Origin: Streptomyces glaucescens
GTDB taxonomy: Bacteria > Actinomycetota > Actinomycetes > Streptomycetales > Streptomycetaceae
Assembly: GCF_002154375.1 (NCBI RefSeq)
Contig: NZ_MUND01000129.1
Coordinates: 1-44,914, forward strand
DNA: 44,914 nt
Reading direction: 5' to 3'
This document shows positions 2,119-4,839 of this stretch, in pieces. The notes beneath the pieces were generated by a model. The model did no database searches. It saw only the letters and a program-made list of their open reading frames with translations, and was not told where the DNA came from. Within the stretch, counting starts at the first letter, position 1. Each line of letters opens with the position of its first letter. Both the position numbers and the translations under genes were made by a program.

Positions 2119-2281
2119 CCTAAGAGGTGACAGCCGCGGAGGGAATACGGACGCCGTTCAAGGCGCTGTGCATCTTCCCGGCCCCCGCCCGCGCCGTCGG
2201 CCCATCCGCAAGCCGACGGTCGGCTCTCGTCCGCCGTGGACGGGGCCGGAAGTCGTTTTCCAACGTTCCGAGAGGTTGTTC

Positions 2282-3817
2282 GTGTCGGCCAGCACATCCC
2301 GTACGCTCCCGCCGGAGATCGCCGAGTCCGTCTCTGTCATGGCGCTCATTGAGCGGGGAAAGGCTGAGGGGCAGATCGCCGGCGATGACGTGCGTCGGGC
2401 CTTCGAAGCTGACCAGATTCCGGCCACTCAGTGGAAGAACGTACTGCGCAGCCTCAATCAGATCCTCGAGGAAGAGGGTGTGACGCTGATGGTCAGTGCC
2501 GCAGAACCCAAGCGCACCCGAAAGAGCGTCGCAGCGAAGAGCCCGGCCAAGCGCACCGCCACCAAGGCGGTCGCGGCGAAGACGGTGACCACTCGTAAGG
2601 CCACCACCTCCGCCGCGCCGGCCGCGCCCGTCGACCCTGCCGTCGACCCCACCGAGGAAGCCGCGCCCGCGAAGAAGGCCGCTGCCAAGAAGACCACCGC
2701 CAAGAAGGCGGTCGCGAAGAAGACCACCGCCAAGAAGACGGCGGCCAAGAAGACCGGCGCCAAGAAGGACGACGTCGAGCTGCTCGACGAAGAGGTCCTC
2801 GAGGACACCAAGGTCGCGGACGAGCCCGAGGGTGCCGAGAGTGCCGGCTTCGTCCTGTCCGACGAGGACGAGGACGACGCCCCCGCGCAGCAGGTCGCCG
2901 CGGCCGGCGCCACCGCCGACCCGGTCAAGGACTACCTCAAGCAGATCGGCAAGGTCCCCCTGCTCAACGCCGAGCAGGAGGTCGAGCTGGCCAAGCGGAT
3001 CGAGGCGGGTCTGTTCGCCGAGGACAAGCTGGCCAACGCCGACAAGCTCGCCCCTAAGCTCAAGCGCGAGCTGGAGATCATCGCCGAGGACGGCCGCCGG
3101 GCCAAGAATCACCTGCTGGAGGCCAACCTCCGCCTGGTGGTCTCCCTGGCCAAGCGCTACACCGGCCGCGGCATGCTCTTCCTGGACCTCATCCAGGAGG
3201 GCAACCTCGGTCTGATCCGCGCGGTCGAGAAGTTCGACTACACCAAGGGCTACAAGTTCTCCACGTACGCCACCTGGTGGATCCGTCAGGCGATCACCCG
3301 CGCGATGGCCGACCAGGCCCGCACCATCCGTATCCCGGTGCACATGGTCGAGGTCATCAACAAGCTCGCGCGCGTGCAGCGCCAGATGCTCCAGGACCTG
3401 GGCCGCGAGCCCACCCCGGAGGAGCTGGCCAAGGAACTCGACATGACCCCCGAGAAGGTCATCGAGGTCCAGAAGTACGGCCGCGAGCCCATCTCGCTGC
3501 ACACCCCGCTCGGCGAGGACGGCGACAGCGAGTTCGGTGACCTCATCGAGGACTCCGAGGCCGTCGTCCCGGCCGACGCGGTCAGCTTCACGCTCCTCCA
3601 GGAGCAGCTGCACTCGGTCCTGGACACCCTGTCCGAGCGTGAGGCGGGCGTCGTCTCCATGCGCTTCGGCCTCACCGACGGTCAGCCGAAGACCCTCGAC
3701 GAGATCGGCAAGGTCTACGGCGTCACGCGTGAGCGCATCCGCCAGATCGAGTCCAAGACCATGTCGAAGCTGCGCCACCCGTCGCGTTCCCAGGTGCTGC
3801 GCGACTACCTCGACTAG
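2282..3817 (+). CDS. hrdB: Principal RNA polymerase sigma factor HrdB
   Basis: Essential housekeeping sigma-70 factor that directs RNA polymerase to vegetative promoters. The 511-residue protein matches the length of HrdB. Residues 1-205 are the Streptomyces-type N-terminus, with an Ala/Lys-rich stretch of TAKK/AAKK repeats (about 95-160) followed by an acidic segment. Region 1.2 is near 210-245, region 2 near 275-345 ([20 protein letters not shown] and the -10 recognition segment ending [10 protein letters not shown]), region 3 near 350-430, and region 4 near 445-505 with the helix-turn-helix [20 protein letters not shown]. The GTG at 2282 ([14 protein letters not shown]...) gives this family length; the ribosome binding site is weak (AGAGG at 2270-2274). 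A longer in-frame start at 2168 is rejected because it lacks a binding site and family support. Confidence 0.98.
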
Positions 3818-3851
3818 GTCGCACCCGGCCCGATCGCGGTCGTACGACGTC

Positions 3852-3887
3852 GAAGGCCCGGTACCGCGGAAGCGGTACCGGGCCTTC
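3852..3887 (+). terminator. hrdB terminator hairpin
   Basis: A perfect 16-bp stem (3852-3867 with 3872-3887) closed by the tetraloop GGAA, 34 bases after the hrdB stop. Confidence 0.85.
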
Positions 3888-3940
3888 GGGCTGCGGGCGT
3901 GGGCGACGGGGAGCGGGTGCGGGGAGTGGTGCTCTGAATC

Positions 3941-3970
3941 ACTCTGGGGGTTCGATGAACGCCCCAGAGT
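3941..3970 (+). promoter_or_regulatory. Nested inverted repeat abutting the protease RBS
   Basis: ACTCTGGGG (3941-3949) is perfectly repeated inverted as CCCCAGAGT (3962-3970). Between them GTTC-GAT-GAAC (3950-3960) continues the stem, leaving one bulged G. The whole can fold as a 13-bp hairpin with a GAT triloop ending exactly where the GAGGAG ribosome binding site starts. It could be an operator or a 5'-UTR structure. Confidence 0.65.
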
Positions 3971-3981
3971 GAGGAGTGCGC

Positions 3982-4839
3982 ATGCGTCGCACCTTTGTCC
4001 GAGCACTGGCCCGCCCACTGGCCGGGGTCGCTGTCGCGGCCCTGATACCGCTGGTACCGGCGGTCTCCGCCGCTCCTGCCGCAGCCGAGGGCATAGTGGG
4101 CGGGTTCCCGGTCGATGTGTCCCAGGCTCCGTGGACGGTGGCGCTCTCCAGTCGTGACCGGTTCGGAGGAACGCGATCCGGGCAGTTCTGCGGTGGGGTG
4201 GCGGTCGGCCCCACCACCGTGCTCACGGCCGCGCACTGCCTGGAGGAGGACGTCCTTGGCTCACCGCCGCACCAGGTGCCCGATCTCAAGGTGATCGCCG
4301 GGCGTACGGATCTGCGCTCCGATCAGGGCCAGGAGGTCGCGGTGCGCGAGAGCTGGGTGAACCCGGGCTACGACGATGTCAGCAACAGCGGGGACTTCGC
4401 CGTGCTGACGCTCGCCGGGCCGTTGCCGTTCAACGCCGTCGTCGCGATGGCCGGCGCGGGCGACCCGGCGTACGCCGTCGGTACCGGGGCCACGGTCTAC
4501 GGCTGGGGCGATGCCTCGGGCCTGGGTGGCTACGCGGACGGGCTGCGGGCCGCGAGTGTGCAGGTGCTGCCCGACGCGCTGTGCGAGCGGGCGTATCCGC
4601 CCGGTGGCGACGGCAGTTACGTCGCCGAGGCCATGGTGTGCGCGGGGCGGCGGCAGGGCGGCCGCGACGCGTGCCAGGGGGACAGCGGGGGGCCGCTGGT
4701 GGCCCAGGGGCGCCTCATCGGGCTGGTGTCCTGGGGGAGCGGCTGCGGGCGCTCCGGGAGCCCCGGGGTCTACACGCGGATCTCGGACGCCCTGCGGAAG
4801 CTGGGCTGGGACCGCGCGGGGTCCCAGGGGCGGGTGTGA
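3982..4839 (+). CDS. Secreted trypsin-like serine protease (S1 family)
   Basis: Exported chymotrypsin-fold endopeptidase. The ATG at 3982 is chosen because GAGGAG lies 5 bases before it; a GTG at 3976 overlaps that site. A signal peptide (two Arg, hydrophobic stretch 10-28, Ala-rich cleavage zone near 30-36) is followed directly by IVGG at about 38-41, the mature trypsin N-terminus whose release activates the enzyme. The catalytic triad is visible: His85 in TAAHC, Asp138 in GDFAVLTL and Ser235 in CQGDSGGP. An Asp six residues before the catalytic Ser (DACQGDSGG) predicts cleavage after Lys/Arg. Cysteine pairs typical of S1 are present. At 285 residues it is a single-domain enzyme. It stands alone between two strong hairpins; the substrate is unknown. 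Confidence 0.93.

Follow-up and report, generated by a model that had tools for sequence, protein, structure and literature searches.

Why should an inverted repeat lie against the ribosome binding site of a protease gene whose upstream neighbor encodes the principal sigma factor? We addressed this question in a 44,914-nt stretch of Streptomyces glaucescens DNA (contig NZ_MUND01000129.1), which we call the window. A sequence-only reading had proposed either a repressor operator or an mRNA structure controlling the translation or stability of a secreted protease.

An inverted repeat overlaps the protease ribosome binding site

We observed 100% complementarity between the two 11-nt arms (Table 1), which are separated by 12 nt. 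The inner GTTC/GAAC adds four more pairs next to one bulged G, giving a 15-bp stem. Complementarity and folding both confirmed the repeat itself, for which 13 bp had been counted previously. The stem had also been said to end exactly before GAGGAG; it does adjoin this sequence, but its right arm shares the first two bases. The hairpin folded at −25.2 kcal/mol (z = −4.0), a stability equaled in 0 of 200 shuffles, and the wider region 3888-4010 folded at −66.1 (z = −4.45). The window's leader had the lowest minimum free energy of 136 Streptomyces leaders (−47.0; z = −7.2); in that structure, each of the four GGAG bases pairs with upstream sequence. The predicted cost of opening its Shine-Dalgarno core was 4.7 in read-through RNA, compared to 6.0 in RNA from its own promoter and 5.6 with the left arm scrambled.

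The stem is followed by GGAGTGC, without the T-run that an intrinsic terminator would have, and a terminator scan requiring a T-run did not find a terminator at the hairpin. It is possibly a terminator of the kind that lacks U residues.

Table 1. Features of the hrdB-protease region, in window coordinates
Feature	Position	Strand	Basis
hrdB, principal sigma factor gene, upstream neighbor and possible read-through source	2168-3817	+	Open reading frame; Pfam Sigma70 r1.2/r2/r3/r4
hrdB terminator-like hairpin, 17-bp perfect stem, no T-run; arms 3851-3867/3872-3888	3851-3888	+	Complementarity
TGCG, −35-like element, fixed spacing	3918-3921	+	97-99% conserved per base, 114 rows; spacing kept in other genera
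Left arm of inverted repeat, TCACTCTGGGG	3939-3949	+	Complementarity and folding
−10-like element CACTCT, inside left arm	3940-3945	+	A3941 and T3945 columns invariant, 114/114
Predicted transcription start region, inner stem and loop	3950-3955	+	Inference from −10 position
Inner stem GTTC/GAAC, loop GAT; G3961 bulged	3950-3960	+	Folding
Right arm of inverted repeat, CCCCAGAGTGA, abutting Shine-Dalgarno sequence	3962-3972	+	Complementarity and folding
Shine-Dalgarno sequence GAGGAG	3971-3976	+	Sequence; GGAG columns 95-100% conserved
Trypsin-like serine protease gene	3982-4839	+	Open reading frame; Pfam Trypsin 3.2e-51

Flanking genes

We take the sigma factor gene to be hrdB. Directly upstream of it, at 869-1840, lies a GntR-FCD regulator gene (Pfam FCD and GntR) that we presume, by position, to be probably WhiH. 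A literature search for a WhiH motif, with WhiH as a candidate regulator, found no such paper among the matches listed. The protease starts at ATG 3982, with an in-frame GTG at 3976, and orthologues mostly back the ATG start (MRR...) over the GTG. The protein looks secreted, judging by eye from an N-terminus that resembles a signal peptide, and by position we assume it to be the orthologue of SCO5821. Deletion of SCO5821 slightly decreased pellet density, according to part of PMC4391728.

A terminator-like hairpin had been placed behind hrdB at 3852-3887. It is present, one base wider on either side, and the protease-side hairpin is distinct from it, as previously supposed. A simple scan that needs a T-run found no terminator at the hrdB hairpin. 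In S. lividans, 3′ ends without U are often read through, as stated in a section of PMC6742748.

The element is conserved among Streptomyces orthologues

A protein search matched the protease in 289 of 295 Streptomyces genomes. We compared 110 leaders, the window's included, made up of the top 30 loci by score plus 80 selected from the rows that followed, with most rows that contained internal stops left out. The left arm and the GNGAGG right end occurred at the same spacing in all 110 leaders. The conservation upstream of orthologues on which the sequence-only reading had let its hairpin depend was thus present. Arm-to-arm match quality varied among these leaders, and the dyad was weak in some genomes. 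The left arm lay 38 nt from the end of GGAG in 86 of 107 leaders (37 nt in 19, 39 nt in 2), unlike the distance from the hrdB stop, which varied widely among loci. A HrdB-like end was found upstream in 106 of the 110 loci (L018, where it is 1252 nt away, is doubtful), and the element was kept in the four loci without a HrdB end within the stretch fetched. Four loci came from named genomes; all three with the leader in reach had the element, and the fourth match begins inside the protein.

Columns were compared over 138 Streptomyces rows and 21 rows from seven other genera (L154 excluded), and two incomplete Streptomyces rows (L141 and L186) were excluded from later counts. Among the 114 Streptomyces rows with 38-nt leaders, the left-arm columns A3, C4, T7 and G10 were invariant (114/114), followed by G8 (113), G9 (112) and T11 (112). 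In the window's own genome, the pattern CTCTGGGG-N0-30-CCCCAGAG matched nowhere else. Its reversed control likewise gave one match there, so the short pattern alone is not rare; the element is above chance because it is conserved in orthologues.

In one deep-branching Streptomyces locus (L223), a GGCGGCCCG...CGGGCCGCC hairpin lies between hrdB and the protease gene with TGCG in its loop, as if terminator and promoter had been fused.

The left arm is very probably a promoter core

We read the left arm as promoter DNA because of its conserved columns, its likeness to HrdB −10 elements and the recurrence of TA[CG]NCTG in distant genera. On these sequence comparisons, the protease promoter very probably has its core in this arm. 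In the 114 rows, TGCG is 97-99% conserved within an nTGCGg hexamer that precedes the −10 element SACTCT by a fixed 17 nt; columns A3 and T7 correspond to A(−11) and T(−7) of that element. HrdB −10 elements keep thymine −7 and adenine −11, and most HrdB promoters have an absent or poorly conserved −35 element (PMC6344877, in part); the Streptomyces consensus is given as −10 TANNNT and −35 NTGACC in a portion of PMC4895711, which also places the commonest 5′UTR class of S. coelicolor at 30-39 nt. The putative protease promoter shares with HrdB-type promoters A(−11), T(−7), a 17-nt spacer within the 16-18 nt range and a predicted 5′UTR near the commonest length. It differs in that 113 of 114 Streptomyces rows carry C or G instead of T(−12) (position 2), that the −35 element is TGCG rather than TGAC, and that GGGT after the −10 element is nearly invariant. 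T at −12 was found in L064, in L199 and in distant genera; L199 (genus g12) and L064 have TACTCTGGGT and TACGCTGGGT, respectively, in the Streptomyces register.

TA[CG]NCTG, mostly TACGCTG, occurred ahead of this protease gene in 21 of 27 leaders from nine distant genera, compared to 1.5 in shuffles. The six leaders without it belong to g2, g5, g15 and one of two g9. Counting against the promoter reading, an E. coli-type sigma-70 promoter scan of 3700-4100 found no site.

The predicted start at positions 12-17 (3950-3955) would give a leader of about 27-32 nt, and HrdB would be the likely sigma factor. The protease's own mRNA would then be without the left arm, because the predicted start is in or beside the loop. 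The hairpin would form only in RNA entering from upstream, from hrdB.

Other candidates were set aside. TGCG could pair in RNA with YGYA ahead of the ATG, but a −35 role is preferred because TGCG stays where that partner is broken (for example in L089, L012 and L011). Motifs of sigma-B type promoters (GGGTAY), BldD, BldM, Crp and HspR were compared, and none fits. A leader peptide, GTG GAT CAC TCT ... GAG TGA, is open in many leaders; on inspection, 37-nt leaders break the frame and the starts vary.

The dyad exceeds promoter plus Shine-Dalgarno sequence

Shuffle and register tests showed that the dyad exceeds what a promoter plus a Shine-Dalgarno sequence supply. Over the eight pairs outside the Shine-Dalgarno end, 5.85 of 8 were matched, compared to 2.46 with the leader shuffled (97 unique rows). 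The dyad in the consensus alone gave a shuffle P of 0.0002, which is the fairer figure because the rows are related. The inverted register scored 0.61 in 38-nt rows and 0.74 in 37-nt rows, compared to at most 0.44 in slid registers for both. Row by row, the arm's best inverted partner exceeded shuffles (P = 0.05) in 75 of 136 Streptomyces rows and in 10 of 12 rows of a sister genus, g7, which we suspect to be Kitasatospora.

Folding of Streptomyces leaders gave a mixed picture of the ribosome binding site. Three or four GGAG bases were paired upstream in the minimum free energy structures of 41 of 136 leaders, and all four were free in 23. Opening the Shine-Dalgarno core cost on average 2.5 in read-through RNA, compared to 4.2 in own-promoter RNA and 4.3 with the left arm scrambled (107 rows). 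Simple masking of the Shine-Dalgarno sequence is thus disfavored in Streptomyces, because the hairpin makes the core easier to open on average. The corresponding means from Shine-Dalgarno to AUG were 8.8, 8.1 and 9.9 (107 rows). Only the region including the nine bases before the Shine-Dalgarno sequence cost more to open in read-through RNA (17.6 compared to 11.2 and 13.3). Burial of the site was predicted in 6 of 26 deep-branching Streptomyces rows.

The sister genus g7 is predicted to bury the ribosome binding site

A strict pattern matched 23 of 35 g7 genomes. In these, the RNA from the −35 element to the AUG folded as one hairpin of ~30 bp. In this hairpin, AUGCGGCCUCC is matched by GGAGGCCGUAU and the −10 region by the adjoining CCAGAG, with the predicted start in the loop. 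Opening the Shine-Dalgarno sequence cost 15.7 in read-through RNA, compared to 4.7 in RNA from position 13 and 5.9 kcal/mol with the upstream 25 nt scrambled (23 rows). In 12 g7 rows taken from the protein search and not from the pattern, many of whose genomes are shared with the 23, the stretch from Shine-Dalgarno to AUG was predicted to be buried in 12 of 12 (18.3 in read-through RNA, 7.2 in own RNA and 8.1 scrambled).

We also folded 9 of the 12 genomes missed by the pattern, comparing read-through with own RNA only. Five are predicted to bury the site and two (L256 and L257) are not; L255 and L261 stand outside the burial count, having a longer leader. Among the other three misses, L221 already counts within the 12 rows, L154 lies outside the computed set and G382 holds a fragment only. 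In L255 and L261, GGAG lies farther from the left arm and GGGTCAG occurs twice, a pattern resembling a partial duplication of the leader.

In the alignment of the 23 g7 rows, 90.4% of cells were paired, compared to at most 46.2% in slid registers. Among 500 alignment shuffles, one reached the covariation score and 8 reached the number of paired cells, in a test that favors the structure because it was drawn from one of the aligned sequences. Covariation was modest: both sides had changed in 2 of 29 pairs. Apparently compensatory changes were AACTCT with GAGTTG (L254, L259), GACGCTG with CAGCGTC (L262) and GGCGCT with AGCGTC (L231). In three g7 loci (L165, L218 and L220), the hrdB stop lies ~85 nt before the protease ATG and a separate hrdB terminator is missing; the g7 hairpin may double as that terminator, because this distance leaves no room for another.

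Other lineages folded differently. In g16, the AUG was buried by a different stem in both genomes; g6 had a stable fold without burial (one row, z = −2.9); and g8, g12, g13 and g17 showed neither a stable fold nor burial. On these folding models, g7 favors an RNA structure in read-through transcripts, and Streptomyces alone does not decide. Of the repressor operator and the mRNA structure proposed earlier, either may hold, the RNA structure as part of read-through RNA; a structure in the protease's own mRNA is unlikely.

A promoter may be embedded in a read-through hairpin

Our leading explanation is a promoter embedded in a hairpin that would form only in read-through RNA and would insulate the protease from hrdB. 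Taken as a whole, we hold this statement to be close to, if just short of, evenly likely. The protease would have its own weak HrdB-type promoter just past the hrdB terminator, composed of a −35 element nTGCGg, a 17-nt spacer, a −10 element SACTCT and a GGGT start region. The complement of the −10 and start region would sit in the leader against the Shine-Dalgarno sequence. RNA from the protease promoter would start at or near the loop and have a free leader without the left arm, and hrdB read-through RNA would carry both arms and fold. The protease would be insulated from that read-through by hindered ribosome binding and/or by a second terminator-like hairpin. From this model we infer an effect on protease expression. 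In Streptomyces, hindrance beside the Shine-Dalgarno sequence or a second, U-less terminator are possible routes. The weak point of insulation is that the Shine-Dalgarno core is predicted to be mostly free in Streptomyces, and the four loci that keep the element without a HrdB end in the stretch fetched also oppose insulation from hrdB, as does the weak dyad of some genomes. The explanation is further opposed by the missing T(−12), the empty E. coli-type promoter scan, the uncompensated left-arm changes at positions 5 and 6, the modest g7 covariation and the rows and genera without predicted burial.

Tn10/IS10 and similar insertion sequences protect their transposase from outside transcription, as Davis, Simons and Kleckner reportedly described for Tn10/IS10 in 1985. 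The protease locus resembles them in having, on the predicted start, its own promoter in or beside the left arm, such that only outside RNA carries both arms, and in having the ribosome binding site within or next to the right arm (completely in g7, by folding). It differs in that the gene is a chromosomal protease rather than a transposase, that the outside RNA would come from a fixed neighbor, hrdB, and that the Shine-Dalgarno core itself is unpaired upstream in most Streptomyces; the likeness is known from sequence and folding. A rather doubtful extension is that Streptomycetaceae carry a chromosomal version of this transposon trick, in which the protease would be translated from its own transcripts and silenced in hrdB leak-through, and some g7 hairpins would replace the hrdB terminator. 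The left arm would then be at once −35/−10 promoter, anti-Shine-Dalgarno sequence and terminator half. A literature search of titles and abstracts found nothing on the hairpin, which is no proof that it is unpublished. Protection from outside transcription is not described in the sections consulted of PMC4265352 and PMC8450116.

If the embedded-promoter explanation is true, a secreted protease that might do harm could sit head to tail with a housekeeping gene without cross-expression, and ~70 bases would serve as promoter, leader and insulator. It would also supply a search rule, namely to look for promoters in which the −10 region can pair with the leader downstream, and a caution that a hairpin before a ribosome binding site need not belong to the mRNA.

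The element belongs to one locus, and a DNA operator is the main rival

Genome searches suggest that the hairpin element is a feature of a single locus and not a regulon. An exact-sequence regulon was rejected: CTCTGGGG-N0-30-CCCCAGAG matched in 31 of 295 genomes, at places scattered among the matches listed, and where the protease place was also listed, only the window's own match lay at the protease gene. The clustering upstream of secreted proteases in general that the sequence-only reading had envisaged was not found; the element belongs to one gene. ACTCTGGG-N15-23-GAGTGA matched in 45 of 121 genomes, mostly at the protease locus, and its other matches look unrelated. TGCG-N19-ACTCTGGGT was found in 58 of 121 genomes, nearly always once per genome. 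All 20 fetched matches stood before the ATG of what is, by eye, the start of a protease-like product, and the few unfetched ones (G052, G066 and G099) look unrelated. With up to 3 mismatches, the dyad occurred at the right spacing in 55 of 101 genomes. The chance control, with the spacing one longer, gave 12 places in 11 of 101 genomes, including a protease locus whose leader is 39 nt long. Right-spacing matches outside the protease locus numbered about seven to nine in the 101 genomes, no more than the control. Matches were sorted into locus and non-locus by coordinates where known, and otherwise by eye.

These searches bear on the main rival, a DNA operator, in which a repressor on the inverted repeat (about −12 to +21) would shut the promoter and no RNA structure would be needed. 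Repressors classically bind where this dyad lies, over the −10 element and start. Besides A(−11) and T(−7), further left-arm bases (C4, G8, G9, G10 and T11) are nearly invariant, and the changes in Streptomyces are not compensated as pairs. The searched genomes, however, have no second site above the wrong-spacing control, and the spacing of the arms is not constant across genera: the left arm's partner usually begins at position 25 or 24 in Streptomyces but at 13 in g7. In addition, CTG preceded by TA[CG]N is kept in genera outside the dyad-bearing group. We consider an operator unlikely.

Accidental complementarity and an mRNA hairpin are less probable still

A second rival is that promoter and Shine-Dalgarno sequence are each conserved separately and that their complementarity is a functionless inherited accident. 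Pair 2-33, with 11 of 24 left changes matched, was the sole covarying pair in Streptomyces; pairs 5-30 and 6-29 had 0 of 24 left changes with a Watson-Crick match (two give G-U), and their lack of covariation suits an accident. So do the absence of dyad or burial from several genera and a mean whole-leader z in Streptomyces that reaches only −1.4 across the 110 main rows and −1.3 across the 26 deep ones. Against it, right-arm columns outside GGAG are conserved (GAGT 84-99%, C25 92%), the inverted register exceeds the slid registers in both leader lengths, and g7 and g16 have different complementary arms. An accident is improbable on this evidence.

The least probable rival, which we regard as quite improbable, is a hairpin in the protease's own mRNA, started upstream of 3939 and acting as a 5′ stabilizer or in translational control (a thermosensor or a protein-bound leader). 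It could account for the stable fold, for the inner stem, present with 6 or more pairs in the minimum free energy structures of 117 of 136 Streptomyces leaders, and for a Shine-Dalgarno core that is freer than in scrambled controls. The hairpin is nevertheless unlikely in this mRNA because the left arm is very probably promoter, matching a −10 element and start region. Some clades (for example L015) have ~30 nt between hrdB terminator and arm, where TGCG was the sole other conserved element seen, and a g7 mRNA of this kind would have its Shine-Dalgarno sequence and AUG buried. A search of Rfam 15 likewise gave no match above the gathering score; hits up to E = 1 lay at 3799-3889, none of them at the hairpin.

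Other repeats seen in the searches

Several repeats were observed away from the element. A near-perfect 27-bp palindrome, CTCTGGGGCAA-N5-TTGCCCCAGAG with small variants, was present in 8 Streptomyces genomes, around 1501-1527 of the fetched loci (L038, L040, L042, L044, L045, L046, L047 and L059). CTCTGGGGCGAGGA...GCGCCCCAGAG-like and CTCTGGGGAGATCCCCAGAG palindromes occurred in several genomes (L033, L037 and L043; G054, G095, G149 and G164). ACTCTGGGACTGAGGGACGTCTGTGAGTGA was identical at G056:C1:6128156 and G081:C1:1427445, away from the protease.
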